Of a stretch of DNA of 64,000 nt, positions 14,103-63,404 are shown in pieces. Source of the stretch: a virus. Below the pieces are notes generated by a model, which did no database searches, had not been told where the DNA came from, and saw nothing but the letters and a program-made list of their open reading frames with translations. A program made the position numbers and the translations under genes. The stretch covers positions 1 to 64,000 of the IMG/VR virus record IMGVR_UViG_3300037323_000212. One strand, written 5' to 3'. Within the stretch, counting starts at the first letter, position 1. Each line of letters begins with the position of its first letter.

Positions 14103-15448
14103 ATGACCATCCCTGCCCCCACCCCCTCGCCGCTGGAATGCCGATTTGCCGTCTACAGCAAATCGAAAACCGATGACACCGACATGCACCTGATCAAAGA
14201 GGCGGTGCACAACCCAGACGGCACCATCACGCCTCACGTGCGCATGGTCAAGCAATACACCCGAAACTTCTACGTGACCAAGAAGGGCATGCAAAACCAC
14301 GTTGACCGAAAGGAGTGGGAGCTTAAAAGCAACCTGACCGAGTTCAAGTGTACCCAGACCAACTTGGTCAACTCGGTGGCGCGCGCCTTTGGAAACGCAG
14401 GCTTTAGAGGCACGCTGCGCGACTTGCCCGAGTCGCGCTTCGTGTACGGCTCAGACATCACATCGACGGCGATGATCAAGCAAAGCTACAAAGACCGCTG
14501 GGACTTGCTCACGCCCTACTCCTACGCGGTGTTTGACACAGAGACCGACATGCTGCACGGCACCGACGCCATCATGATGGCCACGGTGAGTTTTAAAGAC
14601 CGGGTGTTTACCGCTGTGCAAAAGAGCTTCGTCGCCGGCTACACCGACCCCATTGGGCGCATCCACGCGCTGGCTGAGAAGTACTTGGGTACAACGTTCA
14701 AAGCGCGAAACATCAAGATGGAAGTGGTCCTGGTCAACACAGAGATCGATGTCGTTCGCGCCACGATGGCCAAGTCCCACGCGTGGAAGCCCGACTTCCT
14801 AGGGGTGTGGAATTTGGACTTTGACATGACCAAGGTCATCGAGGCGTGTGAGCGCGCCGGCATAGCACCCGAGGACTTGCTCTGTGACCCCGGCGTGCCC
14901 ACTAAGTACCGAAACTTTCGCTATAAAAGGGGTCTGGCCAAGAAGGTGTCTTCCTCGGGCAAGGTGATGAGCTTTACCCCCGCGCAGCGCTGGCACACCG
15001 TGTTTTGCCCCTCGTCCTTTTACTGGATCGATGCGATGTGCGCTTACCGCCAGGTGAGAACGGGCCAGTCCGAGGAGCCCAGCTACGCGCTGGACGCCAT
15101 TTTGAACAAGGACTTGAAGATCGGCAAGCTGAAGTTCAAAGAGGCCGATGCGTACAAGGGCGCGGAGTGGCACATCTTCATGCAAAAGAACTACCCGCTG
15201 GAGTACGTCGTCTACAACCAGTTCGACTGCATCTCCATGGAGCTGCTCGATGAGCTCAACTTGGACTTGCAGCTCTCGCTCCCCGCGTTCTCTGGGTGCT
15301 CGGATTTTAACAACTTCAACTCCCAGCCCAGGCGCTCAGTGAACGCGCTGCACTACTTTTTGCTCAAGCACGACCATGTCATTGGGAGCACGGCTTCTGA
15401 GATGACGGATGACTTGGACACGGACACCTTGGGAATTGACAAGTGGAT
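14103..15448 (+). CDS. Family B DNA polymerase, N-terminal half, exon 1 (3'-5' exonuclease)
   Basis: Encodes the exonuclease module of a family B replicative polymerase. Exo I is FDTETD (about residue 147), Exo II is NLDFDMTKV, and Exo III is YNQFDCIS. The plain frame stops seven nt past 15448, but joining 15448 to 15798 and then 15894 to 16301 gives one 555-residue frame that continues into motif A. The 5' splice site follows a T. The polymerase C-terminal half (motifs B and C) is a separate gene at 52132-54270 on the other strand, so the enzyme is split after motif A. The two polypeptides presumably associate. Start ATG at 14103 has a GCAAG-type leader, not a strong Shine-Dalgarno. Confidence 0.85.
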
Positions 15449-15797
15449 CAACTAACAGGTCCCCTTGCGCAGGAACGCGCAAGTGATAAGATGCTTAATT
15501 GACTGGGACACCCTGAGAGCCTCTTCACCACAGCGCAGCGCGAAAGCGCAGACGTCACGGTTTAAAAACGAAGAGGATTGGGCAATCAGCAGCGAAGCTC
15601 CTACGTATCGTCGGGAGACGAGACACGGAGAACGTTCAACGACTATTCCGTCAGGGAAGTAGGGGCACGAGCCCCGAAACAGCATCTGCCCTACCTCCCT
15701 CGGGACCGGGCAGTGATATAGTCTGTTCCCGAGGGAAACCACGGGCAGGTGTCATGCAGCACACCGGGCACGCTAGCAGAGCGTGCTGGACAACAAG
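15449..15797 (+). ncRNA. Group I intron 1 in DNA polymerase gene
   Basis: 349 nt, no open frame of note. The conserved core is visible in order: P element AATTGACTGGGA near 15497, Q element AATCAGCAGCGAAG near 15580, R element GTTCAACGACTATTCC near 15632, and S element GATATAGTCT near 15715. A GTAGGGGCACGAGCCCC hairpin is shared with the other introns in this genome. It starts after T and ends in G. Splicing restores ...DKW-IVMLDAHLV... in frame. Boundaries were deduced by reading and frame, not by experiment. Confidence 0.85.
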
Positions 15798-15894
15798 CGT
15801 GATGTTAGACGCGCACCTCGTGACCGACACGGGGCTGCAGCTGATCAAGGAGATACCCGGCATGCCCACAAACATCCGGGTCGATGTAGCGGAT
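15798..15894 (+). CDS. DNA polymerase N-terminal half, exon 2
   Basis: A 97-nt exon encoding the link between the exonuclease domain and polymerase motif A (…LVTDTGLQLIKEIPGM…RVDVAD). It begins one nt into a codon (phase matches exon 1) and ends with GAT before intron 2. Spliced, it gives RVDVAD-LDVTASYP. Confidence 0.8.
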
Positions 15895-16300
15895 TGTACA
15901 ATTGACACACCTCAATTAAGTCCGGCCGTGGCGTAATTCATGGTATAAAGTTATTTAATTGCTGGGAACTCTCGCAAAACCACTGGGCTAAATCGGCGTA
16001 TGAAAATACAGACGCAAATGCTTGAAAACACAGTGGGTAGAGACAATCAGCAGCCAAGGCCCTAACCGCTTGACCACCAAGCGCACGGGCAAGGTTCAAC
16101 GACTATTCCGCACACACTGCAGCGTCCCCCGACGCTGCAGTCAGGAAGTAGGGGCAAGTGCTCCGAAACAGTAACCACCCCACCAGGTAACACTGAGGGT
16201 GAAGATATAGTCTCGTCTGCATGGAGACATGCAGCAGTCCTTGCGGTCGTGAGACCCCGAGCAAACGGGCACCACCTAACGAGTGGTGTTGAAGATATCG
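15895..16300 (+). ncRNA. Group I intron 2 in DNA polymerase gene
   Basis: 406 nt. Core elements: P AATTGCTGGGAACTCTC near 15957, Q AATCAGCAGCCAAGG near 16037, R GGTTCAACGACTATTCC near 16090, S AAGATATAGTCTCG near 16202, and the shared GTAGGGGCAAGTGCTCC hairpin. It ends in G immediately before the TTA-GAC codons of motif A. It contains no long open frame. Confidence 0.85.
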
Positions 16301-18785: not shown

Positions 18786-20189
18786 TTAAACAGGTGGGGT
18801 TGGCTGCACGTCTTTGAACACGTAGCTGCCGCACACGCCGTCCAAGAAACCCATCGCGTAGCGAATTTTAGCATCAGTGATGCAAAGCCGCTTGCCAGCA
18901 ATGGCGCGACTGGGGTAGACGGTTACTTCGCCAGTCTCCCGGTTGGTGACTTCAACTGGGAGGCTGCCGATCCATTTGGGCTTGTAGCGCTCTGGCAGGT
19001 TTGCCACGCGGTCTGCCGTAGGCGCGTCGTCGTAGACAAAGATCCAGCCCGCGTACGGCTTTGCCTTGTGGTGAACGACGTGGTGTTGCAAGCCCGTGTA
19101 GCTGAGCTTTAGCGCATCTGCCATTTGGTCTAATGTGTTTGCGGTGATCATGATGCTGGTGCTCTCACTCATTGCCAACCAAATGCCAAAGGTAGAGTCC
19201 CAAGAAGACTCACTGTCCTCTTCGCGCTCTAAGGTGGGCCAAGGCACGGGGTTGTCGTATTTGAACACCTGCCAGTCTTTGGTGACCCGGCCCACCCGGG
19301 GGCTGTTCAGGTGCTTGTTGAGCCGCTTCTCGCTGATCTTCAATGTCAATGCCAGCTCTTTGGCCGTGCTGTACTTTGCCACAGCACCAGTGCGCACATC
19401 GCGCGTGAGCACTGCTTGGTGGGAGGTCAGGCCCGTTTGAATGGCGTGCACGTTGTTCTCCTTTGTGCTCACCCACTCCAAGTTGCCCAGCCAGTTGTGG
19501 TGTTTGACCCCATCGATGTGGTTAACCACCAACTCGTGCAGTGGGACATCGGCGTGGCGGGTGGGCTTGGCAACAAAGATCTTTGCCAAAAGGCGGTGAA
19601 CGTAATTGCTCACGTACTTGCCACCAATGCGAATGGCCACCAGCGTGTAAGTATCTGTCTTGAAGACCGGTACTTCTTTGTCAGCAGCCAAATTGAAAAA
19701 CACCCCGTCTCGGTTGACCACCACCGGCAAGTCAGACTCTGGCATGAAGAAGTAGCCTGGCTTTGCGGCGCACTCCACCGCATGGGGATAGTAGCCATCA
19801 AACACTTGGCTGAAATCGGGGGTGCTGAATTTGACCTTGTTCTCGGTGAGCGCTTGAAGGGTCTTCAGTGTTTTTGCGTACTGGCGCCCTCGCCACTCCA
19901 AGTTGCTCAGGGTGTGGTTTGCTGGGTTGGCGTCTTTGTGAAAGACCCGAGCAGTTGCCACCGTGAGCGGTGGCTCAATCGGGATGAACGTACAGGCGAG
20001 CAAGTAGGCCACCGACAAGCTGCGCTGGGTTTTGCCCAGCGCCACGTTGGTCATGGTTTTGTCGTTTTTGTCCGAGACCCACTGCGCGCCGACTCGCGCG
20101 TCTCGGATGCGTCGCACGCATCCGTTAGGCGCTATCTCGTAGTCGGGAAACGTCGGGATCTGGGTGAAGGCTAGGGGTGAGGTGGTCAT
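18786..20189 (-). CDS. Free-standing HNH homing-type endonuclease with NUMOD repeats
   Basis: 467 residues. An N-terminal IPTFPDYEIAPNGCVRRI block matches the NUMOD4-type lead of intron-associated HNH enzymes. The HNH core is VNHIDGVKHHNWLGNLEWVS with a following KEN (residues about 218-245). An earlier HKD...N..NLEW near residue 84-98 looks like a second, partial HNH. Downstream NUMOD1-like helix-turn-helix segments (YSTAKELALTLKISEKRL; NTLDQMADALKLSYTGL) would bind DNA. Such enzymes make site-specific cuts that spread introns or themselves. It lies next to an uninterrupted beta' C-terminal gene and may act in trans for the ORF-less introns here. A TTAACC element precedes the ATG. Confidence 0.82.
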   Translation of the reverse strand: MTTSPLAFTQIPTFPDYEIAPNGCVRRIRDARVGAQWVSDKNDKTMTNVALGKTQRSLSVAYLLACTFIPIEPPLTVATARVFHKDANPANHTLSNLEWRGRQYAKTLKTLQALTENKVKFSTPDFSQVFDGYYPHAVECAAKPGYFFMPESDLPVVVNRDGVFFNLAADKEVPVFKTDTYTLVAIRIGGKYVSNYVHRLLAKIFVAKPTRHADVPLHELVVNHIDGVKHHNWLGNLEWVSTKENNVHAIQTGLTSHQAVLTRDVRTGAVAKYSTAKELALTLKISEKRLNKHLNSPRVGRVTKDWQVFKYDNPVPWPTLEREEDSESSWDSTFGIWLAMSESTSIMITANTLDQMADALKLSYTGLQHHVVHHKAKPYAGWIFVYDDAPTADRVANLPERYKPKWIGSLPVEVTNRETGEVTVYPSRAIAGKRLCITDAKIRYAMGFLDGVCGSYVFKDVQPTPPV

Positions 20190-29622: not shown

Positions 29623-30267
29623 CGCGCGTTAAGCGGTGCCCGTTTGCTCGAGGTCTCACGACCGGGAGTACTGCTGCAGGGTTTCCCTGCATGTCCAGAC
29701 TATATCTTCACCCGTCTCGTTAGAGCGAGGGTGCTTCCTGTTTCGACTCACTTGAGTCTACTGACCCCACGGTCATAGTCGTTGAACCTTTCCCATGCCT
29801 TTCGGTTTAGGGACTTGGCTGCTAAAGGGGACCTTAGGTCCCACGGTTGCCCATTGTAACATCCACTCTTTGTTAGACTGTCGACGCCTGCTTTCGCAAC
29901 GCCTGTAGTAGAGCAGCTTTAGGGGTTTCCAGCAGTTAAAGAAGTTACACTGCCGCATTTCGGCGGCAGGAAGCATGATTACAGTAACGTTAAGTTCTCT
30001 TTCAATTCCCAATCCCCTAATGGAAGACTGTTTTCAATCCTAGACTTAACTATGTGGTACGACGTATTAAAGGTTGACATAACCGCCTCCAATGAAGGAA
30101 ACATCATCGTCTCGCCAGTTATTGTTAAGTCGCTAGGGGTTCCATTGCTTTTGCAAAGTTGGGAATTGAGAGAAACGATATAGTTGTGGTTTCCAGGGAT
30201 TTTTTTGAACATGTCAATCCTTTAAGAGTTACTCCCACTATATCTCAAAACATCACAATAATTCTTT
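29623..30267 (-). ncRNA. Group I intron in beta' C gene, with small ORF
   Basis: 645 nt, the longest intron here. On the minus strand: P element near 29940 (AACTGCTGGAAACCCC), Q-like AGCAGCCAAG near 29815, R GGTTCAACGACTATGACC near 29780, and S AAGATATAGTCTGG near 29705. It starts after T (…CACCAAAGT) and ends in G before GTGTTGAAC. The extra length is at the 5' side and carries the 77-codon frame. Confidence 0.85.
29979..30212 (-). CDS. Intron-encoded remnant of a homing endonuclease (NUMOD part only)
   Basis: 77 residues, starting 55 nt inside the intron. IPGNHNYIVSLNSQ resembles the NUMOD4-type N-terminus also seen in the 467-residue HNH enzyme (IPTFPDYEIAPNG). FPSLEAVMSTFNTSYHIV resembles a NUMOD1 helix-turn-helix. 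The HNH nuclease core is missing, so it cannot cut as read. It may be a decayed endonuclease, or a small DNA- or RNA-binding protein kept for splicing or regulation. AT-richer than its surroundings, consistent with recent arrival. Confidence 0.6.
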   Translation of the reverse strand: MFKKIPGNHNYIVSLNSQLCKSNGTPSDLTITGETMMFPSLEAVMSTFNTSYHIVKSRIENSLPLGDWELKENLTLL

Positions 30268-32932: not shown

Positions 32933-33381
32933 CCTGTTGTCCAGTGAGTTCTGCTAACTCACCCGGTGTGCTGATTGACACCCGCCTGTGGCTTTCCCAC
33001 AGGAGCAGACTATATCTTCATCCCCGGTTGTTGCGTCTAAGCAACTCGCGGTAGGATGCTTCCCATTTCGGGGCTCATGCCCCTACACCGTGGTAAGCGG
33101 TTAGTCGTTGAACCTTACCCGTGCGCGCTGTGTATCACTGCGCGCGTGCGGGTCTTGGCTGCGGATTACCCACATCTTTATCTTTGTTACCGTACCTGAA
33201 TGATTGGTTCAGCCGCCAAAAGGTTTCCCAGTTTGGTTTGGTAGATAAAGCGCTAGAGGATTTTCCCGTCAGTTAAAGAAGTTTGTCTTTGGCCATTACT
33301 GGCCAAAGAGGCTGGCTTAAGTGAGTGCTTGGGCGCCGGTGCGAGGTGAGTCGCTCGGCACAAAGTCTCCACTCAATTTCA
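32933..33381 (-). ncRNA. Group I intron in beta gene
   Basis: 449 nt, no long frame. On the minus strand: P element AACTGACGGGAAAATCC near 33275, Q AATCCGCAGCCAAG near 33165, R GGTTCAACGACTAACC near 33113, S AAGATATAGTCTGC near 33018, and the shared GTAGGGGCATGAGCCCC hairpin. Begins after the T of GGTGGT and ends in G before AAA (Lys). The 3' part is very like the 3' part of beta' N intron 2. Confidence 0.87.
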
Positions 33382-45947: not shown

Positions 45948-46175
45948 TTACGCGGGCAATGCCATTGCCCGCAAGAAGTCGAGTTTCACCGGGTCTTGTT
46001 CGAGCTCGGCTGGGAAACTCATCCAGTTGGCAATGGTAGACGCCACTGGGGTTGGGAGGCTGGCGGCGTTAGAGAGTGTCCTTGGGCGGTTGATGTCCAA
46101 GCAGTTCTTGTGCGGCGCCAAGTTCTCCAGCTCGTGTGCGGTGGCGTTGTCCAGCGCCAGCACGATGTTCATCTG
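45948..46175 (-). CDS. RNA polymerase beta' N-terminal subunit, exon 4
   Basis: 75 residues starting QMNIVLALDNATAHE, directly continuing NADFDGD as in bacterial beta' (NADFDGDQMAVH). It ends with the stop at 45948, the chain end of the beta' N half. The exon begins after a G in the intron. Confidence 0.85.
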   Translation of the reverse strand, partial: QMNIVLALDNATAHELENLAPHKNCLDINRPRTLSNAASLPTPVASTIANWMSFPAELEQDPVKLDFLRAMALPA

Positions 46176-46533
46176 CTTTACCTTCCACACCGCTCGTGAG
46201 TTCGGTGTGCGTTCATCATTGAACTGCTGCATGTCTCCATGCAGAAGAGACCATATCTTCACCTTTCGCTTAAGCGGTAAGGTGTCCCCTGTTTCGGCGC
46301 CACTTGGCGCCTACTCCGTGTTAATGGATGGCCGTTGAACTCGTCCCGTGCCCATTACAGGTTTAGGGAATCAGCTGCTGGTTGTCTCTAACTTAGGCTA
46401 TTGTTAAACATTCATGGCCTGCTTTCGCGGCCATTGTAGTTAGCAAGTTTGGCGAGAGGTTCCAGCAATTAAGGGGAAATCTATCGGACTGTTTCTAGCC
46501 CATAGGACCTAAAGCTTGTTTATTGCAAGCTTG
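46176..46533 (-). ncRNA. Group I intron 3 in beta' N gene
   Basis: 358 nt. Minus strand: P element AATTGCTGGAACCTCTCG near 46462, Q-like AGCAGCTGATTCCC near 46370, R AGTTCAACGGCCATCC near 46335 and S AAGATATGGTCTC near 46255. Starts after T of the microexon and ends in G before CAG-ATG. Confidence 0.85.
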
Positions 46534-46545
46534 ATCACCATCGAA
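46534..46545 (-). CDS. 12-nt microexon encoding FDGD of the beta' catalytic motif
   Basis: TTCGATGGTGAT on the minus strand. Flanked by introns 2 and 3. It supplies two of the three metal-binding aspartates of NADFDGD. Identified because NAD (exon 2) and QMNIV (exon 4) leave exactly FDGD missing, and this is the only matching stretch, with T at its end and G before it as group I splicing needs. Confidence 0.85.
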
Positions 46546-46947
46546 CCTATTGTCCAGTCGATTCTGCTAATCGACCCGGTGTGCTAATCGACCACCCGCC
46601 TCCTGTCTCCAGGAGGAGCAGACTATGTCATGATCCTGAGGATTCAGGACCCTTCCCGTTTCGGGGCTCATGCCCCTACACCGCGCTACCGGTTAGTCGT
46701 TGGCCAGATCCCATGTCTTTCGATTTAGGGACTTCGGTGCTCAAGTAGTCTCTACTCACTGATTTTTAAACGTTCATGTGTCCTCTTTGGGAGGGTCAAG
46801 CTTTCGCCCACATTGTAGTTCAGTGATCTAACAAGATTTCCTAGCAATTAGGGAAGCACTAACGCCGCATTGCTGCTGCGCAGGACTGTGTGTTAATTTT
46901 TGTTTTACAAACCGCTTACGTTTCATAAAACGAAATCAACACACTTT
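46546..46947 (-). ncRNA. Group I intron 2 in beta' N gene
   Basis: 402 nt. Core on the minus strand: P-like AATTGCTAGGAAATCTTG near 46848, R-like GGCCAACGACTAACCGG near 46697, S-like CATAGTCTGC near 46625. R and S differ from the other introns at paired positions. Its 3' portion closely resembles the beta intron. Begins after T of GCTGAT, ends in G before TTC. Confidence 0.83.
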
Positions 46948-46996
46948 ATCAGCGTTGACCATTATCTTCCACTGGGCGCGTGAAGCCCAATGCGTT
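46948..46996 (-). CDS. RNA polymerase beta' N-terminal subunit, exon 2
   Basis: 49 nt encoding THWASRAQWKIMVNAD. NAD is the first half of the catalytic motif. One nt completes the codon begun in exon 1 (phase 2), so the frame is kept exactly. Confidence 0.83.
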
Positions 46997-47316
46997 CACT
47001 CAGGGTCTCACGACCGCAAGGACTGCTGCACCTCTCGATGCACGAGGAGACTATCTCATCATCCCAGTGCCCTGGGATGGTTCCTGTTTCGAGGCCACTT
47101 GGCCCCTACGCCTTTCGGCTAGTCGTTGAACTCTTCCCATGTCCCGGCTTCACAGCGGTACGCAGGGATTCAGCTGCTGATTGCCTCTACCTGTGAATTT
47201 TCAAACCGTCACGTTCGCCGTTTCCAGCCGCGTTGTGGTTTCACAGTTTAACCAAGGGTTTCCAGCAATTAAGGAACTTATCTACCCAGCATTGCTACTG
47301 GGTGGGACTCAATGTT
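46997..47316 (-). ncRNA. Group I intron 1 in beta' N gene
   Basis: 320 nt, shortest of the set. Minus strand: P AATTGCTGGAAACCCTTGG near 47270, Q-like AATCAGCAGCTG near 47177, R AGTTCAACGACTAGCCG near 47130, S GAGATAGTCTCC near 47055. Starts after T of GGATT, ends in G before AACGCATTGG. Confidence 0.84.
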
Positions 47317-48542
47317 AATCCTTTAACCGACAAGATCGACAAGGTGATTGTCGGGTCTTCTACGTCGGTCTTCACTTTGGTGATGAACATGCGCTGCGTG
47401 GAGCCCCTGGCTAGGCTGGGGTTGCGCGAGAAGATGCACGGCAGGCCTTTATCGGGGGACTCATCGATCAGCTCGTGAAACAGCTCATCAATCAAGTGGT
47501 TGTACTTGACTGTGTTCTCTTGCAACAGGCCTGCGATTTGGTTGGGGGTGTAGCCCCTGCGCAGCAGCTTGTTGGTGAGGTGCATGCGCAGCATCGTCAC
47601 ACCGTGCCCCCACGCGATGTGCAGCTCATCGTAGCGGTGCGCCTTGGTGTTGCTCGTGATCACAGCCCTGGCTGAGAAGTGGTTTCTCGTGCCAAAGATG
47701 TGCTTCCTAAACAAACCGTTCTTCTGCGAGAAGATCTCGGAGTAGGCGCTGTGGTAGAAGTCTGCCAGCATGGAGATCGTCTTGGCGGTGCGGTTCTCCT
47801 TTTGTCTCAACGTGAAATTGGCCAGCGGGGAGTCAATGGACGAGATGGTGCGAATCGCATCGATTGCCCCCGTGACCAGTGGGTCCACGAACTGGCCGAC
47901 CTTTGTGTCCTCCACCACCATCAGCGTCTTGTTGGGCAGGGGCAGGTACTGGCTGAACACGCACTCGCGCTGCTCTCTGAGCAGCTGCAGCACCTGGTCG
48001 TCCTCGCCCTTCTTGGGGCGAAAGCGCTTGAGTCCAGCCAAGATGGTGATGTACTTATCGAAGTTCTTCACGAAATTGTTGTACCCCCGCTCAATGCCCA
48101 AGAAGCTGAGCTCGCCCAGCTCCACCGGTTTGCTGGAGGTGGGGTGGTAGTCGGTGTTGCAGATCCATTCGATGAAATTGAAGTTCGATTTGCTGAACTT
48201 CTTGCAGATCATCGTCCACACCAGGGGGTTGATCAGCCGCTCCACGCCCTTGGGCGCGCGTATCCACACGAGCGGCTCCAGCTGCTGATCGAACACCTCA
48301 CTCACTGGCTTTTGACAGTTGCCACAGATCACCCCCATTTGGTAGCCACCTTGCAAGTCGCCACACTCACAGCGGGGCTCGTTGCTGAACAAGTCGGTCT
48401 TGTCGTACTTGACCGAGATCAGCTGGTCGATGTACAAGCGGTCGTCCTCGCTGGCGCACGACAAGTCGTTGATGATGATCGGCTCAATTGATGCCTTGAG
48501 AAAGGCTTGGCTGAAGTTCTCCAACTCGATGAAAATTCCCAT
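47317..48542 (-). CDS. RNA polymerase beta' N-terminal subunit, exon 1
   Basis: 408 codons, ATG at 48542 with AAGGAAAG upstream (a longer frame runs into the terminator). It holds the beta' zinc site CECGDLQGG...CGNCQ (about residues 57-75) and the FGTRNHFSARAVITSN block that matches GKRVDYSGRSVI. It then has FSRNPSLARGS, the counterpart of LNRAPTLHRLG, just before the catalytic loop. Spliced length is 504 residues with exons 2-4. Pairs with a beta' C chain. It lies immediately downstream of the chimallin candidate gene, and both may be on one transcript with a terminator between. Confidence 0.88.
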
Positions 48543-48656: not shown

Positions 48657-50561
48657 TTAGATGCTCCAGCGACCACCGAACTGGCGGGTCTGCTCCAGGG
48701 ACTTGCTCTCACCCCCGCCGTAGTTTGGTCCAAAGACCGGGTCCTTGAACGACCCGGGCATCACCGCTGTTTGCGGCAAGAACGAGGCCACACCGCGCTG
48801 GTCCTCGTAGCCACCGGACAGCGCGGGGCTGACCAGGCGCGCGTTTAGGCCCGCCGCTTTGCACGCGTTGCCAAGTGCAATCACGAACTTGTCGTCCAGC
48901 GTGACCAAGCGGGCCATGCCCGTCCAGGTGGTCTCGTATCGGATCAGCTCACTCAGCATGCGCTTGCGCTCGCTCAAGCGCTGGGCGAGTGGATACTCCG
49001 TCCTGTAGAACGTGTCCGAGAACGCTTGCGCGGTTTGGCGCTGGATCTCTGTGGACTGTGACGCGCCCAGGTTCAGCATGGCGAGATAGTCGTAGTCACG
49101 GATGTCGTGACGCTGGCCGTCTGCACCAATGTAGTAGCCCAAATGCACCTGCTCGTCCATCACCATCACGGGGTTGTCGTTGCCCCCGTAGAATTGAGCA
49201 AACTTGCCCCCGGTGAGCGTGTTGGCCCCCTCCAGCAGCGCTTGGGCAGCCCGTGGGTTGCCCTGTGCTGCCAAGGAGAACACCTCGTTGTACCAGGTGT
49301 CTGCACCCAGGTCTGACACGAGCAAAGAGATGGTGAGGCCTGGGCGCACGGCCCCTTGCAGCAGCGTGCCCAAGCTCAGCTTGTTCACGTTGAAGCTGGC
49401 CGCCTTCGTGTCCACCGCACCACCGTAGCCGCTTGGGTCGTTGAAGATGTTGGCCTCTACGTTGATTGCGCCAATGTCCTTCAGGTCCACCGCAGCACCC
49501 TTGGACGCCTCTTTGGGCCGTGGGCTGTAGTACGGGTACCACGCTTTCCCCTCCGTCAGGGCGATTGTTGTGGCAAGCGCGAGCAGCTGCGCTGGAATGC
49601 TGGGGCGCAGGTAGTTCTCCAGGTTAGTGACCACCAGTCTTGCAGCGAATTTTTGATTCATAGGCTGGGATTGGTTGTCGTAGCCGTAGCCATAGCCTTG
49701 GGGCTGTGTAACGGGTGCCCAAACCAAGTCGATGTAGCCGCCAACGGAGGTGACTTTCATCGTCCTGGCCTGGCTCTTGATGCCTTGGGCATCGGGCTTG
49801 ACGATCTCGGTGGCGATCAGGTCCACCGAGATGTTGGAGCGCACCGGCAGCCCCACATAGTCGACCTTGTCAGGCTGATTGAAGTCAACCCGCACCTGCA
49901 AGTTGGCGTCGATTGCCCTTTGCGAGAGGTCAAAGTCTTGCCAGTTGGAGTCGCGCATCTCTTGGTCAGACAACACCGGCAGACTTGCGTTGGCTGCGAC
50001 CAAACGCGCTGCGTTCTCGTCCTCCCAGTTAAACGAGCGCGGGATGACTTGGCCCGACACTGCAAAGCAGCTCTTGCCCGGAAAGGCGCGCTGCACGATG
50101 GTCGCCACTGTGTCGCGGTACACCGATGTCATCACGTCCGCTGCGAAGCGGCTGATGACAATCTGTCGGTTGTTGTATGTCACGACCTCATCGGCCAAGC
50201 TCTCGCCCGAGCCCTCTAGGATGACGGTGTGGTAGCTCACCCCAGCGCCAGGGTTGGCTTTGTTGCGCGCGCACACCACCACTGAGCTCAGGGAGAGACG
50301 CGTCTCTTTGGTGTTGTCCACCGCCAAGACAATGACCTCCATCGGTGAGTCCTTGAAGTCCTTCAAGTACTGTGCGGTCAAAACCGCCATCGCCTTGACC
50401 AACACCTCGCTGGCGGCGGTGCGGCTCATGCCGCTGGTGGGCCGCATGTTGAAGAATCCCCACGATGGGTTGTTCCCCATTGGGGTTTGCGGGATGTTGC
50501 CACCTGGATTTGGTGGGGTGAAGGAGCCGTTGTCTGGCTCGTTGTTGCCTTTGATGGCCAT
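48657..50561 (-). CDS. Candidate phage nuclear-shell protein (chimallin, ChmA)
   Basis: 634 residues, ATG at 50561 with AAAGGAAAT upstream. Known chimallins are about 600-640 residues with an N-terminal disordered tail, an alpha/beta domain and a GNAT-like domain. Here a 40-residue P/G/N-rich tail precedes an alpha/beta region (MEVIVLAVDNTKETRLS; GVSYHTVILEGSG). The C-terminal half has VHLGYYIGADGQ...DIRDYDYLAML and an EYPLAQRLSERKRM helix. The gene neighbours RNA polymerase, and the same genome has a phage tubulin. I have no alignment, so this is a reasoned candidate; a major structural protein is the alternative. Confidence 0.6.
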   Translation of the reverse strand: MAIKGNNEPDNGSFTPPNPGGNIPQTPMGNNPSWGFFNMRPTSGMSRTAASEVLVKAMAVLTAQYLKDFKDSPMEVIVLAVDNTKETRLSLSSVVVCARNKANPGAGVSYHTVILEGSGESLADEVVTYNNRQIVISRFAADVMTSVYRDTVATIVQRAFPGKSCFAVSGQVIPRSFNWEDENAARLVAANASLPVLSDQEMRDSNWQDFDLSQRAIDANLQVRVDFNQPDKVDYVGLPVRSNISVDLIATEIVKPDAQGIKSQARTMKVTSVGGYIDLVWAPVTQPQGYGYGYDNQSQPMNQKFAARLVVTNLENYLRPSIPAQLLALATTIALTEGKAWYPYYSPRPKEASKGAAVDLKDIGAINVEANIFNDPSGYGGAVDTKAASFNVNKLSLGTLLQGAVRPGLTISLLVSDLGADTWYNEVFSLAAQGNPRAAQALLEGANTLTGGKFAQFYGGNDNPVMVMDEQVHLGYYIGADGQRHDIRDYDYLAMLNLGASQSTEIQRQTAQAFSDTFYRTEYPLAQRLSERKRMLSELIRYETTWTGMARLVTLDDKFVIALGNACKAAGLNARLVSPALSGGYEDQRGVASFLPQTAVMPGSFKDPVFGPNYGGGESKSLEQTRQFGGRWSI

Positions 50562-55004: not shown

Positions 55005-55403
55005 TCAATCGATGGTGCTGATCGTGATGCTGGTAAATCCGTTTTGCAGCAGCACTTGGCGCAGCTTATCCAAGTCACTCAAATGGATGTCAGCCACAAT
55101 CACGCTGGCCGTTGTCTTTACCACCAGCACGGGCTGCTCAGCAATCCAGTCCATCGCCAGCACGCGCACCTCGCCCGTGGAGGTACGGATCTTCACGTAG
55201 GTCAGGTCCGAGGCTGAGCGCGGCACGCCTGGGCCCAGTTGGGAGTAGACCTGCACGTGCACGGGGGTCACGTCTTCAATGGCCTTGGCTGAATCGTAGT
55301 CCAAAAGAGCCAAGACGGTGGCGTCCTTGTAGCCGTAGCCCAAAATCGCGCCCGCTTTGAGCGTGAAGTTGTACACGCTCCTGATCGATAGGGAGTAGGT
55401 CAT
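55005..55403 (-). CDS. Small SH3-like beta-barrel protein
   Basis: 132 residues, ATG at 55403 directly after the previous stop (TAAATG context on the minus strand). Sequence (MTYSLSIRSVYNFTLKAG...LGYGYKDATVLALLDYD...TYVKIRTSTGEVRVLAMDWI) is beta-rich in a pattern seen in small T4-like and jumbo phage proteins with an SH3-like fold. Last gene of the small-gene run. No catalytic residues; function unknown. Confidence 0.6.
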   Translation of the reverse strand: MTYSLSIRSVYNFTLKAGAILGYGYKDATVLALLDYDSAKAIEDVTPVHVQVYSQLGPGVPRSASDLTYVKIRTSTGEVRVLAMDWIAEQPVLVVKTTASVIVADIHLSDLDKLRQVLLQNGFTSITISTID

Positions 55404-55847
55404 TTAAAAAATTCTCTCTGGGTCGTTGTCTGATAAATGTTTGATCACCACGCAGTTCGCACGCAGTGAGTGAAACACGTAGTTAAATTTGTTTGAGTCG
55501 AGCTCAATCACCTCAAACAGCTGCTGGGCCACCATGTCAGCAATGCTCTCGTAGAGCTTTAAGTAACTTGCTTGAACTATTTGCCCAAGCGAGGTAAGCG
55601 TCGTGTAAGACACCTGCAGGCCGCGGTGGCGAAGCAAGGTGAAGTTTGGGCGGTGGGCGTACACGACCATCGTGCCGGGCTGCTGCGTCTTTGAGTCAGA
55701 CAGCCAGTACAAAAACTCATCAAACACCTGCGTGAGCAGCTCGTGCACGTCCGAGTCGTCCAAGATCCCAACTGCTCTGAAGCACGAGACGCACTCGCGG
55801 GTATCGAGCACAATGTACTCAGGAACAAGGGGCTTGGTCCAAGACAT
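55404..55847 (-). CDS. Small-gene cluster protein
   Basis: 147 residues, ATG at 55847. It overlaps the previous gene by 29 nt in another frame and abuts the next. Mixed alpha/beta with an aromatic N-terminus (PEYIVLDTRECV); helical C-terminal half. No recognised family. Likely an early host-takeover protein by analogy with such clusters, not by motif. Confidence 0.6.
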   Translation of the reverse strand: MSWTKPLVPEYIVLDTRECVSCFRAVGILDDSDVHELLTQVFDEFLYWLSDSKTQQPGTMVVYAHRPNFTLLRHRGLQVSYTTLTSLGQIVQASYLKLYESIADMVAQQLFEVIELDSNKFNYVFHSLRANCVVIKHLSDNDPERIF

Positions 55848-56677: not shown

Positions 56678-57097
56678 TCACGCTTGGGTGTGCACCAGCT
56701 TGTCTTGGCGCGCTGTTTGCACCAGCAGTGCGTCGTGCTTGCCTCTTTGTTTGACGTAAGACCAGTTGGTGTCCTCAGTGAAATTGGGGTCAATATGCGA
56801 GACCTCTGCTTGCACAGCCATCAACACGTCTTGCAGTTCTTCTAGGAGACAAAGACGGGCGTCTTCTTTCTCCTCACTCTCGTTTTCCTCAAGCTGGTTA
56901 AACAAGGGGTCTGTTGAGATCCACTCAAACAACTCCTGGGTGCACCCACAGCCGTCCTTGCAGTGGTGATCCGAGAAGTTATCTACAATCACGCTCAACA
57001 CATACTCCTGATCGACCACGTGGGGTGAGGCAAGAGTGGCAAACTGATTGAGTTTAGCGTGCGCCTGGGGTAAGCTGATCAGCAGGTAGTTTGCCAT
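56678..57097 (-). CDS. Small-gene cluster protein, LLxLSxAY family
   Basis: 139 residues, ATG at 57097. Clear paralogue of 56231-56644 (MANYLLISLPQAHAKL...; CKDGCGC cluster; LFEWIS; VQAEVSHIDP; KQRGKHDALLVQ). The Cys pattern C.DGCGC suggests metal binding. Function unknown. Confidence 0.65.
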   Translation of the reverse strand: MANYLLISLPQAHAKLNQFATLASPHVVDQEYVLSVIVDNFSDHHCKDGCGCTQELFEWISTDPLFNQLEENESEEKEDARLCLLEELQDVLMAVQAEVSHIDPNFTEDTNWSYVKQRGKHDALLVQTARQDKLVHTQA

Positions 57098-57125
57098 AAA
57101 TTAAGTCTCTCTTTTCGTTAAAGAC

Positions 57126-57497
57126 TCAGGAGGTTCGCCTGAGGAGTGCCATACCGCCCGAGCAGCGCCTCGAGTAGCGCCAAGACGCTTGGTGCTCAGT
57201 GTAGGGGTTTAAATGACAGAGCTCGGCTTGCATACCCAGCAGTGTGTTTTGCAGGCGCCTCCACAGCTCAAGGATCTTCTCGGCTGAGACGTCCTCGCCA
57301 CAGGCAAACCCCTCGTACTTGAAGATCCACTGCAGCGTCTCGTGAATCTGGCACGCCCCATCGACCTCATCAATGAACGTGTCAAACATCACACTCATCA
57401 GTGCCTCCGTGTCCAAGGTGGGGAGTGAGTCGTCCTTGCTCAAGCAGTCCAGTGTGGCGTAAGCTGCTGAGAAATCAACCAACAAATACTGCACCAT
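57126..57497 (-). CDS. Small-gene cluster protein, LLxLSxAY family
   Basis: 123 residues, ATG at 57497. MVQYLLVDFSAAYATL opening, WIFKYEGF core, (M)QAELCHLNPY and a C-terminal ALLRR resemble the other cluster members. It lacks the CxxxC cluster. Closest to the next gene upstream (57519-57887). Confidence 0.65.
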   Translation of the reverse strand: MVQYLLVDFSAAYATLDCLSKDDSLPTLDTEALMSVMFDTFIDEVDGACQIHETLQWIFKYEGFACGEDVSAEKILELWRRLQNTLLGMQAELCHLNPYTEHQASWRYSRRCSGGMALLRRTS

Positions 57498-57518
57498 CGT
57501 TTTCTTTGTGAAGATAAT

Positions 57519-57887
57519 TCAATTGACTTGCTTCAAAAGCGCAGTGTCCAAGTCGTGCCTGCGCACGTAGCGCCACGCGGTGCACCGCACCGCGTGCGGC
57601 TCAAGAAAGCTCATCTCAGACTGCATCTCCGTTAAAGCCACATACAAAAGCTGCCACAGCTCAAGGCGTTTTTCAGCCGAGACGCTCGCGCTGGCTGACA
57701 GGTGGGCGATTGAGAAAATCCACCGAAGTGTTTTTCCAATTTGGTGCTCGTGGTCTGGCTCCCTGAGCAGTGTTTCAAACAAAATGCCCATGAGTGCCTC
57801 CGTGTCAATGCGCGGCAGTGTCTCGTCTTGATCCAGTCGGTCCATGACGGTGTAGGACAAAGACAGATCAGCCAGCAAGTACTGCAT
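57519..57887 (-). CDS. Small-gene cluster protein, LLxLSxAY family
   Basis: 122 residues from the ATG at 57887, which has AGGAGG eight or so nt upstream; it overlaps the upstream gene by 20 nt. Paralogue of 57126-57497: MQYLLADLSLSYTVM, DTEALMGILFETLL vs DTEALMSVMFDTFI, LRWIFS vs LQWIFK. Function unknown. Confidence 0.65.
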   Translation of the reverse strand: MQYLLADLSLSYTVMDRLDQDETLPRIDTEALMGILFETLLREPDHEHQIGKTLRWIFSIAHLSASASVSAEKRLELWQLLYVALTEMQSEMSFLEPHAVRCTAWRYVRRHDLDTALLKQVN

Positions 57888-58287
57888 CACACGCCTCCTC
57901 ACTCAGCTCGACCAGTACGCTTGAGCAAAGCCGGTAAGACAGCACGCGCACCAAGCGCATGGGCCGATTTGCAAACAACGGGGCAATCAGGTCCGCGTAG
58001 TGATCGTAGAACAAACGCAGGCTGAGCTCAAGGACCTCGTTGTGCGTGCGCGAGCTCAGGCAGTGCGCGTAGGCAAGCTGTTCGTGCTCGGGCAGCGCGT
58101 GCAGCGCGCACTCCATTGTGCTTAAGCACGCGCTCACAAAATACTCTTCACTGTCTTGATTTTCCAAGAAGCACACCACCAGCTCGTGCGCGCCATTGGG
58201 CATGAGCGCGCGTGGGATCAGTTGCTCGTAGAAGATGCGCTCGCCCAAGTCCAGTAGGGGCAGGGCCATTTTAATGTTGCGCGCCAT
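57868..58287 (-). CDS. Small-gene cluster protein
   Basis: 139 residues from the ATG at 58287 (MARNIKMALPLL), 4 nt past the previous stop. The longer open frame upstream is out-of-register with the real upstream gene and is rejected. Helical, with a block RVLSYRLCSSVLVELSEEA at the end. No family recognised. Confidence 0.6.
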   Translation of the reverse strand: MARNIKMALPLLDLGERIFYEQLIPRALMPNGAHELVVCFLENQDSEEYFVSACLSTMECALHALPEHEQLAYAHCLSSRTHNEVLELSLRLFYDHYADLIAPLFANRPMRLVRVLSYRLCSSVLVELSEEACDAVLAG

Positions 58288-58291
58288 GCCC

Positions 58292-58705
58292 CTACGCTCC
58301 CCAAAAGCCGCGCTTGGGTGAGAAAAACAAGTCCACCTGCAGCGCGTCCAGCTCAAGGAGCAGCGTGGAGCGCGCATGCATGCGCGCTCTGAAAACGCGC
58401 GCGATGTGCTGCTGGTTGTGCGCGGCGTAGCCCGGCAAGTACAAGCGAGTGGTGTCCATGATGGCCTCGATGATGTGCGAGCCCACCTCGGAGTACTCAA
58501 AGTTAAGCAAATTGTTCTCCTCGAGCAGATGCTGGTAGTGTCGGCTGTGGTTCTCCCCATTGTCCTCAAAGCCGTGGGTGCTGAAGAACGACAGCACAAC
58601 TGCGCCAAAAAGCTCCTCGGCCTCAGGGTTTCGCTCGCTAAGTGCGATGCCTCGGTGGCGGTGCAAAATCTCGTAAGCCTGGTCGTACTCAATGACCAGT
58701 GCCAT
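58292..58705 (-). CDS. Small-gene cluster protein
   Basis: 137 residues from the ATG at 58705 (MALVIEYDQAYEIL). The opening VIEYDQAYEIL echoes the cluster's LLxLSxAY start. Helical; ends FFSPKRGFWGA. A longer N-terminus is open but lies over the upstream gene and is unlikely. Confidence 0.6.
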   Translation of the reverse strand: MALVIEYDQAYEILHRHRGIALSERNPEAEELFGAVVLSFFSTHGFEDNGENHSRHYQHLLEENNLLNFEYSEVGSHIIEAIMDTTRLYLPGYAAHNQQHIARVFRARMHARSTLLLELDALQVDLFFSPKRGFWGA

Positions 58706-58715
58706 TGAGGTGCGT

Positions 58716-59117
58716 TTAGTCAAAGCACTGGGCGTGCACGGTGAGCTGCAAGCACGATGAGCTGCGAATGGTGTACTCATACTTTCCCTTGTACCGACCA
58801 ATGCCAAAATTGGGAATGGCCTCTGTGATAACGGTGCAGATGAGGTCAAAGAGCTCGTTGACCAGATCTACGGCGCTTTGCTCTGTAAAGCCCACCCCTT
58901 CGAGCTCGAAAATGGCGCTGTCAAGCCCATCGATGCACGCGCCCTGAGCGACATCGTCCTTGTTCAACGCAACTGAGGTGAGCAAGGTGAGCACGCGCTT
59001 AATCCAGCTCTCCTTGGCACCTCCCAGCGCCAAGCGCTGCAGCAGGTGGTCTTTGGCCTCTTGCAAGGAGATCACCAGGTGCACGTACTGGATGCTACGA
59101 GCGGTATTCATGCCCAT
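58716..59117 (-). CDS. Small-gene cluster protein
   Basis: 133 residues from the ATG at 59117, with GGGAGAG 7 nt upstream; it overlaps the upstream gene by 23 nt. VHLVISLQEAKDHLLQRL resembles the cluster opening after a short lead. Mixed alpha/beta; three Cys. Unknown function. Confidence 0.6.
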   Translation of the reverse strand: MGMNTARSIQYVHLVISLQEAKDHLLQRLALGGAKESWIKRVLTLLTSVALNKDDVAQGACIDGLDSAIFELEGVGFTEQSAVDLVNELFDLICTVITEAIPNFGIGRYKGKYEYTIRSSSCLQLTVHAQCFD

Positions 59118-59891: not shown

Positions 59892-60581
59892 TTACAACAC
59901 CAAGCCGATGGCGGTGGCCGTGTCGTCTTTGCCCAAGATGGAGGTGCGAGCGATCTGGGAGGCAAAGCTGGCATCGACCTCTTTGAGCGTTGTGGTAAGC
60001 GCGTTGGAGGCGCGCTGCACAAAGTCACTGCTGATCGTGAAGTGCAAAGGCTCCTCAGAGATCATCTGCAAGCTCCCTGGGGTGCCCACCCGCCACGCAG
60101 CAGGCGCGTAGCCCACGCACTGGTAGGCCGGTGTGCTGTTCAGTCGGGTGTTCATGTCTTGGAGTGCCAGCGTGGCCACTGAGACGACGGTACCCACCTT
60201 GTCCAGCTCGTGCTGGTCCATCACGAAGTTGAGCGACGACAGCTGGGCGGGGCCGCCCGAGAACTTCAGGTACTCCAGCCAGTTCTTGATGTCTGCGGTA
60301 TCAAGCTCTTCGTTTTGTCCGGAGAACAAGCCCAGCAGCATGGTGAGCGCGTACTTCACTTGCTTGTTCACCTCGAAGCGCGACTTGTCGCGCGTGTTCT
60401 CCACGTAGTGCATCACCACGGGTGAGTTGCGCACGTTGGCAATGCCCTCGTAGCTCTTTAAGGTCTTGATGGTGTTCTCAATCTCGATGCGGGTGTCCGT
60501 AGAACCCACCACCACGACCACCACGTTTTCTCCCCGGGCTTTGAGCTCGGACACCAGCACTGGGCCGATCACGGAACCACT
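59892..60581 (-). CDS. Phage tubulin (PhuZ-like), exon 2
   Basis: 229 residues beginning SGSVIGPVLVSELK, which completes the tubulin signature GGSGS. The middle helix (NKQVKYALTMLLGLFSG) and C-terminal domain follow. Spliced product is 338 residues, close to known PhuZ proteins. Confidence 0.85.
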   Translation of the reverse strand, partial: SGSVIGPVLVSELKARGENVVVVVVGSTDTRIEIENTIKTLKSYEGIANVRNSPVVMHYVENTRDKSRFEVNKQVKYALTMLLGLFSGQNEELDTADIKNWLEYLKFSGGPAQLSSLNFVMDQHELDKVGTVVSVATLALQDMNTRLNSTPAYQCVGYAPAAWRVGTPGSLQMISEEPLHFTISSDFVQRASNALTTTLKEVDASFASQIARTSILGKDDTATAIGLVL

Positions 60582-60983
60582 CGTTATGTTCGAATAAGTG
60601 CGTTAGGCTTATCCCGCGCCATTACGCGCAGCTGCAACTTTCACTGCAGACCAGACTATATCTTCATCTTGACAGGCCGCCACTGCTGCGCTGTTAAGAC
60701 ACTCTCCATTTCGAGGCACTTGCCCCTACACCGTGGTAAACGGTTAGTCGTTGAACCTTCTCCGTGCCTGCTTGAGGGTTAGGAGCTTGGATGCTGATTG
60801 CCCAATCTTTGTACTTTTCAAACCACTCCATCGGACAATGGAGTCTCTTCGAGAAGAGTCGCTTTGCCTTTCGGCTCGCAGTGGTAACAAAGCTCTAAGG
60901 GGATTCCAGCAGTTAAAAGAGATTCACTGCAGTGTCACCACTGCAGCGGGCTATCCCATCGTCCCTGAGGGACGATGGGGTTA
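60582..60983 (-). ncRNA. Group I intron in phage tubulin gene
   Basis: 402 nt. Minus strand: P AACTGCTGGAATCCCC near 60910, Q-like AATCAGCATCCAAGC near 60800, R GGTTCAACGACTAACCG near 60748, S AAGATATAGTCTGG near 60660, and the shared GTAGGGGCAAGTGCC hairpin. Starts after T of GGTGGT, ends in G before AGT. Confidence 0.87.
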
Positions 60984-61310
60984 ACCACCCGAGGCGGTGT
61001 GCACCACGACGTTGAACATGGTGGGCTTGAACTTTTGCAAAATGCCCAGCACGTTCTTGGAGATGGCCTCGTAGTTGGCCGAGCGCACTTTGCCCGAGCC
61101 ATCGATGTCGTTGAACAGGTAGATCGCCTCTTCGGGCAACTTCTTGTTGTGCAAGTTGGAGCGACTCGTGTCGATGTAGCACGGCACCATTGAGGCGAAT
61201 CCCACGTCGCTTTGGTTGCGCAGGCTCTCCATGTCGGCTACGATGTTGACCCCGCCGCCCCCGGCGGCGTACACGTTAACTTGGGCGCGGGTGATGTTGG
61301 ATGCGGTCAT
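60984..61310 (-). CDS. Phage tubulin (PhuZ-like), exon 1
   Basis: 109 residues, ATG at 61310. The nucleotide-binding loop AAGGGGVN (residues 15-22), a DIDGSGKVR loop and the beginning of the signature loop TASGG match the tubulin/FtsZ GTPase fold. PhuZ filaments centre the phage nucleus in the infected cell and move capsids. The plain frame stops two bases into the intron, so the gene would look truncated without splicing. Start lacks a strong ribosome site (GATAAAAATCTC upstream of nothing clear), so expression may depend on a leader. Confidence 0.87.
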
Positions 61311-61811: not shown

Positions 61812-62189
61812 TTAGATGGATTTGCTGAGGATTGTCAAATCATTGCCAGCCTGATAGACAGTGGTCGTCTGGCCTATAACGCCGTTGCTGATCTCCACGC
61901 AGGGCACACTCAACTGGGTACCGGGCAGTTTGGCGACATTTACCTTGATGTTCAGGTAAGTGTTTAGGTGACCTTCGACCGAGCCGATCTCGACGGTTAA
62001 GCATCCTTTGGTTTCGCACTCATCGGTCACGTCGATTTGAAAGGCTTTTGCAATGTCACTGGCAATAGCGTCTTGGACAGACCCGCCCGACTTGTAGCAA
62101 GGCGAGTCAACATCGAGGATGACTTGACTGAACGAGAAGTCCTCGTTTTCATCGATGAGATCATCCAGCGGTGTTTCTTTGGAAGTCAT
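61812..62189 (-). CDS. TPLDxLID tandem paralogue 1
   Basis: 125 residues, ATG at 62189 with AAAAGGAAA upstream. Opening MTSKETPLDDLIDENEDFSF is shared with two upstream neighbours, followed by an acidic linker, an IDV.DE...G central block and a beta-rich C-terminus (QTTVYQAGNDLTIL). Probably arose by tandem duplication. Function unknown; small, acidic and soluble. Confidence 0.65.
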   Translation of the reverse strand: MTSKETPLDDLIDENEDFSFSQVILDVDSPCYKSGGSVQDAIASDIAKAFQIDVTDECETKGCLTVEIGSVEGHLNTYLNIKVNVAKLPGTQLSVPCVEISNGVIGQTTTVYQAGNDLTILSKSI

Positions 62190-62214
62190 TTCTTTTTTCC
62201 TTTTGCTTAAACTT

Positions 62215-62541
62215 TTAAAAATGGCCAACTGTCCACGTGTGAATCTCTTGACCAAGGGCGCCTGCGTTTACTGTCACTCGATTGGTTTGCGCGCCTTGCT
62301 TCATGTTGACTTCAAGTATCAACATCTTATCTTCACCACCACCGTTGGGGGTAATGCAAATGCGCACCCGCTCCTTGGAGAGGGATTCATCGATTACATC
62401 GATTTTGAAAGCCTGCTCAACCCGCTCCTTGGTTGCATCTGGCAAAGGGTGACACGAGTAATCCCCAAAGATGTTCTCGGTAAATGAGAAGTCCCCGTTC
62501 TTGTCGATCAGCTCGTCCAATGGTGTTGCTTTGGAGGTCAT
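62215..62541 (-). CDS. TPLDxLID tandem paralogue 2
   Basis: 108 residues, ATG at 62541 with GAAGGA upstream. MTSKATPLDELIDKNGDFSF opening and FKIDVIDES block match paralogue 1 and 3. The shortest and most diverged member. Function unknown. Confidence 0.65.
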   Translation of the reverse strand: MTSKATPLDELIDKNGDFSFTENIFGDYSCHPLPDATKERVEQAFKIDVIDESLSKERVRICITPNGGGEDKMLILEVNMKQGAQTNRVTVNAGALGQEIHTWTVGHF

Positions 62542-62551
62542 CTTGAGTCCT

Positions 62552-62929
62552 TCAATTTTCTTCATTCAAAATCGCAAATCCGTCTCCGGCCCGATGGATG
62601 GTGAGTCTCTGACCACTTAGCTCATTTGTGATCACCACGCGCGGCGCACTCAAACCCCCACCCGGGGGTTGAGCAGCACTTATCTCAACGGAAATAGAGT
62701 CATCAAGGTGGCCTTCAGTGGAGCCAACCTCGACGATCACACATCCCTTGGTTGAGCACGCATCAATCACGTTGATCTCAAAGATCTGCTCGGAGATGCC
62801 TTCAGTGTCACCCCCAGCGTTGCCCGCGTTTAACGAGTAAAAAGGTGAGTTGGTATCAAAGATCGTTTGTGTAAACGAGAAGTCCTCGTTTTCATCGATG
62901 AGATCATCCAACGGTGTCTCTTGGGACAT
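62552..62929 (-). CDS. TPLDxLID tandem paralogue 3
   Basis: 125 residues from the ATG at 62929 with AGAGGAAAA upstream; the longer frame overlaps the upstream gene. MSQETPLDDLIDENEDFSF opening; closest to paralogue 1 (GCVIVEVGSTEGHLDD vs GCLTVEIGSVEGHLNT). Unknown function. Confidence 0.65.
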   Translation of the reverse strand: MSQETPLDDLIDENEDFSFTQTIFDTNSPFYSLNAGNAGGDTEGISEQIFEINVIDACSTKGCVIVEVGSTEGHLDDSISVEISAAQPPGGGLSAPRVVITNELSGQRLTIHRAGDGFAILNEEN

Positions 62930-62960
62930 GGTGATTTTCCTCTTGGTGAGCGGGTTTACT

Positions 62961-63404
62961 TCAGTACTCCGCTGCGATGATGTCGTCTTCGGATATGCCA
63001 AAGACCTCAGCGGCTTTGGCATAGATGTCGTACAGAGATAGGTGCACGGCACTGACATCATCTCCTCGGCGAACAAAAGCCGTTGCCGAGCCACTGATGT
63101 ACCTCAGTTTCTCAGCACCCGCTTGCATGACCACCAGCACTTGGCCCTCTTTGACCAGCGGCATCACGTGCTTTCTGAAATCAAACTCCACCGGTTCAAG
63201 CACATTGTCCTCATCGTCGGTGCACTGGGTCTGGGTGAACTCAGAAGGCCAGCACCCGTCACCGGAGAAATCATTGGGGGCCAGACCGAACTTATCGCCA
63301 TCGGTGAGCACTTGGAGCGAGTTGCACTCGGCCATCTTCTTAAATGCCTCAGCGTCGGTCACCTCGACGTAATTGGTGCGGCTGGTTGCGTAGTAGTTTG
63401 CCAT
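62961..63404 (-). CDS. Conserved hypothetical, YYATSRTNY family
   Basis: 147 residues, ATG at 63404 with AAAGGAAAA upstream. The opening MANYYATSRTNYVEVTD and the later AGAEKLRYISGSATAF match a small protein family that I recall from plasmids and phages of varied bacteria (MSNYYSTSRTNYFRVTD type). No function is known to me. Acidic, alpha/beta. It precedes the TPLDxLID trio in the same direction. Confidence 0.65.
   Translation of the reverse strand: MANYYATSRTNYVEVTDAEAFKKMAECNSLQVLTDGDKFGLAPNDFSGDGCWPSEFTQTQCTDDEDNVLEPVEFDFRKHVMPLVKEGQVLVVMQAGAEKLRYISGSATAFVRRGDDVSAVHLSLYDIYAKAAEVFGISEDDIIAAEY

Follow-up and report, generated by a model that had tools for sequence, protein, structure and literature searches.

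A group I intron between the G-box codons of phuZ, the tubulin gene of a predicted nucleus-forming phage

Here we report that phuZ, the tubulin gene of a predicted nucleus-forming bacteriophage, carries an insert between the G-box codons G-G|S-G-S that is best explained as an IA2-like group I intron without a homing endonuclease gene, and that this intron is very probably spliced out of the transcript. As the gene reads, full-length PhuZ would be obtained from it only through RNA splicing, a natural case of such a requirement for a phage tubulin, and one which adds a cytoskeletal gene to the phage genes with group I introns. The intron class is already known; no earlier case of phuZ as its host gene was found, and a search of openly licensed literature for introns in connection with PhuZ or phage tubulin gave no report of one in phuZ. 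The gene lies within the window, the 64,000-nucleotide stretch analysed (positions 1 to 64,000), which is part of the 70,226-bp linear record IMGVR_UViG_3300037323_000212 of IMG/VR.

On the minus strand of positions 59892-61310, a non-coding stretch separates two open frames, the first of 109 aa (61310-60981) and the second ending at 59892. Exon 1 (60984..61310, minus strand) supplies codons 1-109 (MTASNITRAQ...VVVHTASGG) and exon 2 (59892..60581, minus strand) supplies codons 110-338 (SGSVIGP...GLVL, followed by the stop). The two match adjoining parts of the same PhuZ profile, PHROG 4733, at positions 3-101 (E=1.1e-25) and 102-322 (E=1.3e-51), respectively. Exon 1 ends in GCC TCG GGT GGT and exon 2 begins with AGT GGT TCC, so that joining 61310-60984 to 60581-59892 gives a protein of 338 aa with ASGGSGSVIGP at the junction, while the unspliced frame meets a TAA immediately after exon 1 and stops at 109 aa. 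Recomputing the frames reproduced the coordinates, the junction TASGG|SGSVIGP and the 109-residue unspliced fragment of the original prediction, which had also placed an intron in the tubulin G-box GGSGS; the splice point does fall between the codons of this motif, at a place where relatives are uninterrupted.

The spliced protein had been taken for PhuZ, and a profile search upholds this identity, with a match to PHROG 4733 ("tubulin PhuZ") over positions 3-322 at E=1.5e-81, a value obtained with a 337-aa variant that is one junction Gly short. By sequence, the joined protein matches PDB 9pm9 (1.7e-39), the PhuZ of phiKZ (3zbp, 3e-31) and that of 201phi2-1 (3j5v, 5.5e-19; 3r4v, 6e-19). The Pfam TubZ_C_2 match lies above its cut-off (29 vs 27), and the Pfam tubulin match of the 338-aa form, at 30.7 bits, falls slightly under the cut-off of 33. 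In the T7 loop, LDTADIKNW corresponds in the alignments to LDLMDITNW (phiKZ) and LDVHDVANW (201phi2-1). The match to the characterised PhuZ tubulins (phiKZ gp39, 201phi2-1 gp59 and PhiPA3 gp28) is thus full-length, with the G-box GGSGS, the T7-loop D-x-x-N-W and the C-terminal tail in common (PHROG 4733; alignments to 3zbp and 3r4v); the joined product differs from them in being only about 30% identical and in having its gene interrupted by an intron. Like them, it presumably forms filaments.

The phage itself is classed as nucleus-forming (Chimalliviridae) from its gene content, since the record encodes a nuclear shell protein (chimallin, ChmA; 48657..50561, minus strand; PHROG 4795 "nuclear shell protein", E=4.8e-74), together with multisubunit RNA polymerase (RNAP) genes (PHROGs 2987, 3295, 3015 and 2962). 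A second intact tubulin gene, which the original prediction named as evidence that would count against it, was looked for across the 70,226-bp record and is absent there, leaving one tubulin gene in that record; most of the genome probably lies outside it, given the 216-kb length of the contig that is the closest relative, and a second phuZ may therefore lie elsewhere. The further proposal that the cytoskeleton which centres the phage nucleus depends on splicing holds in part: full-length PhuZ from this phuZ would depend on it, but the wider need does not follow, PhuZ being reported as dispensable and as absent from one third of Chimalliviridae (PMC12908238).

The insert (60582..60983, minus strand; 402 nt) begins with TAA, the in-frame UAA being its first codon, and ends in ACG. 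In a scan of the window it matched the Rfam group I intron model RF00028 at 60632-60967 (minus strand) with 72.7 bits (E=1.6e-16), over the full length of the model (1-253). By its sequence, the insert is not a chance feature, since this score stands against a gathering cut-off of 50 bits and the exons on either side match adjoining parts of the PhuZ profile. The conserved catalytic core (P3-P8) is present, with P7, the guanosine site, intact (GACUA...AGAUAUAGUC), and the ends are those of a group I intron: a U paired with G in P1 at the 5' site and a terminal G (G60582). The predicted P1 helix (60934..60986, minus strand; exon GGU|UA with UAGCC; RNA fold, -43.1 kcal/mol) has its U-G wobble at the 5' splice site and encloses an 11-bp hairpin, CCCAUCGUCCC-UCA-GGGACGAUGGG, with a 10-bp P2 next to it in a near-optimal fold. 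No P10 pairing was evident for this intron. In the minimum-energy fold, GACUA is followed by two small hairpins between P7 and P3, ACCGU-UUACC-ACGGU and GGGGC-AAGU-GCCUC. Two hairpins in this position are the IA2 pattern, as in the td intron of T4, and the subgroup assignment made here, by eye from these P7.1/P7.2 elements and not with a subgroup model, is accordingly worded as IA2-like. The longest open reading frame wholly within the 402 nt has 48 aa, leaving no space for a gene of the HNH or GIY-YIG kind, which identifies the insert, as far as its sequence goes, as a group I intron without a homing endonuclease gene.

The exact splice sites follow from homology. Across ASGG|SGSVIGP, the alignment with uninterrupted relatives has no gap. 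The nearest of them found, at 70% identity, is in the 216-kb contig L011 (NZ_JAQTXM010000004.1) and reads GCGTCGGGTGGCAGCGGCAGTGTG across the site, further relatives at 54-59% identity have S-G-G-S-G without a gap, and [SG]GGSGS is the form that the G-box takes in the distant PhuZ of Burkholderia, Xanthomonas, Proteus, Klebsiella, Erwinia and PhiPA3 phages. This gapless G-box sets the end of exon 1 at GGTGGT and the start of exon 2 at AGTGGT. Neither boundary can slide, as the intron opens with T but exon 2 with A, and the intron closes with G but exon 1 with T. The intron ends in GAACAUAACG|, exactly as does the RNA polymerase intron of phiKZ, after which the next exon starts TTC GAC GGG GAC (FDGD), and this independently supports the 3' site. 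At the 5' site, the predicted RNA pairing agrees with homology, the U-G wobble of P1 falling exactly there.

On this basis, the phuZ pre-mRNA would fold into the ribozyme, P1 presenting the 5' splice site; guanosine would attack after U60984, and the exons would be ligated at the terminal G60582, giving the junction GGTGGT|AGTGGTTCC. Ligation would restore the 338-codon frame, to be translated as the 338-aa PhuZ, whereas unspliced RNA would be read only as far as the UAA. We infer that phuZ RNA is spliced in this manner in vivo.

Use of a 5' site located 3 nt further upstream (CGGGU|GGU), whether exclusively or for a minor isoform, would give ASG-SGSV with the loss of one G-box Gly. This site was suspected at first as the main one, as CGGGU/GCCCG makes a 5-bp P1 that also has a U-G wobble and is only about 1.2 kcal/mol weaker in the local fold (-41.9 vs -43.1). 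It was then rejected in that role because relatives retain the second Gly and a canonical P1 is available at GGU|UA, and we now regard its use as unlikely: the full [SG]GGSGS length is kept in the relatives compared, the Pfam tubulin score falls from 30.7 bits for the 338-aa form to 23.3 bits for the resulting 337-aa product, and the P1 helices of the introns in the RNAP b' gene (GGAU/GUCC and GAU/GUC, read by eye) are equally short on the exon side. Less likely still is an inactive intron in a broken phuZ, in a phage which lives without PhuZ as some chimalliviruses do; the dispensability of the protein and its absence from one third of the family (PMC12908238) would allow for this. Against such decay stand the ribozyme core, above cut-off and with P7 intact, the exact return to the ancestral length upon intron removal, and the seven similar introns that interrupt polymerase genes elsewhere in the record and that, left unspliced, would be lethal. 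In addition, neither exon contains a frameshift, a stop or any other disabling change, and the pairwise dN/dS against L011 of 0.20 (0.32 in exon 1 and 0.16 in exon 2) is as expected of a working gene, yet most of that divergence may be older than the insertion. That parts of 109 and 226-229 aa are made separately and then associate, for which an in-frame GTG at 60572 could provide the second start, is scarcely credible, with the break inside the phosphate-binding loop, no split genes among the relatives inspected and a recognisable ribozyme filling the gap exactly.

The excised group I intron thus remains the preferred reading, and it appears to be confined to this phage. All 61 phuZ loci inspected in viral contigs were uninterrupted, with frames of 289-390 codons, as was that of the metagenome-assembled (MAG) contig L011, and no intron was found in the relative with the shortest PhuZ frame (L062). 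PhuZ occurred in 196 phage records, and all matches listed for these (about 100 of the 196, in two partly overlapping lists of 60) run as a single piece across residue 109. An exact DNA pattern search of viral contigs yielded no intron-containing sibling, spliced junction or empty site. Since the other phuZ genes inspected are uninterrupted, the intron is probably a recent, private gain. Its DNA matches a PhiPA3 helicase-region intron at 71% over 217 nt and the phiKZ RNAP intron at 72.5% over 179 nt, and the closest introns found in intron-to-intron comparison were one in the RNAP of L011 (62%) and the one in the helicase region of PhiPA3 (60%). Recent copying from one of its seven siblings in the record was considered and is unsupported, the best identity to any of them being 58%. 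L011 itself, in which five group I introns were counted, was binned with a Rhodoferax MAG; the contig resembles a jumbo phage and is a hint of a host among the betaproteobacteria.

In total, eight group I introns occur within the 70 kb of the record, and flanking genes served to assign their host genes: the DNA polymerase gene PHROG 3011 has two, the RNAP genes PHROG 3295 and PHROG 3015 have one each, the RNAP gene PHROG 2987 has three, and phuZ has one. Among 26 other PhuZ-bearing records, 10 had group I intron matches, at most four each. The DNA polymerase introns lie at 15439-16234 (plus strand, approximate boundaries), that in PHROG 3295 at 32986-33372 (minus strand) and that splitting PHROG 3015 at 29674-30034 (minus strand, approximate boundaries). 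Three of the eight, of 359, 402 and 358 nt (46176-47317, minus strand), cut the RNAP catalytic motif NADFDGD into micro-exons of 11 nt (TCAACGCTGAT, 46958-46948, minus strand, preceded by ...VKG(F)|) and 12 nt (TTCGATGGTGAT, 46545-46534, minus strand). The exon after the third intron, CAGATGAAC, starts at 46175 (minus strand), and the spliced reading is VKGFNADFDGDQMNIVLALDN. In the related phages G001, G002 and G004, a 12-nt exon, GATTTYGACGGT, read by eye, lies between two introns. A 467-aa HNH endonuclease (PHROG 59) is encoded between genes at 18786-20189 (minus strand), and this free-standing enzyme might act in trans to make introns mobile. Near phuZ, three adjacent reading frames at 61812-63094 (minus strand) have in common the start T-P-L-D-[DE]-L-I-D-[EK]-N-x-D-F-S-F and diverge thereafter, possibly reflecting a common signal or a paralogue array, and a series of small paralogue-like frames (MANYLLISL.., MVQYLLVDF.., MQYLLADLSL..) occupies 56678-58849 (minus strand).

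This wider pattern, of eight introns in 70 kb and micro-exons in the RNAP active site, could prove a more interesting lead than the phuZ intron itself, and the contrast with at most four introns in any of the 26 other records raises the question of whether the separation of transcription and translation by the phage nucleus lets introns accumulate. A speculative extension, to which we give a low probability, is that phuZ splicing is regulated and times or limits spindle assembly, for instance by proceeding only for transcripts made within the phage nucleus, out of reach of ribosomes, and that nucleus formation in general, by uncoupling transcription from translation, allows phages to bear an unusually large number of group I introns.

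Introns are known from the RNA polymerase genes of chimalliviruses (PMC11620839, PMC10643120), and such introns generally favour conserved functional sites (PMC12908238). In PhiPA3, gp65-66 is treated for mass-spectrometry identification as one protein split by an intron (55005-55454) (PMC10643120), which offers a precedent from within this phage group; the gene with the PHROG 3295 intron described above, similar in sequence, is probably the same as this one. The phiKZ and PhiPA3 introns are of the same ribozyme class as the phuZ intron and likewise sit in a highly conserved catalytic or ligand-binding motif. They differ in being located in polymerase or helicase genes, whereas phuZ is an accessory gene of the cytoskeleton; in addition, the intron of PhiPA3 gp210, unlike that of phuZ, carries an HNH endonuclease gene (PMC11620839). 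Outside this group, the multi-intron phages Twort and T4 resemble the present phage in IA2-type architecture and in having several introns per genome, but belong to another phage family and have their introns in other host genes. The td intron of T4, like the phuZ intron, has a stop codon at its 5' end.
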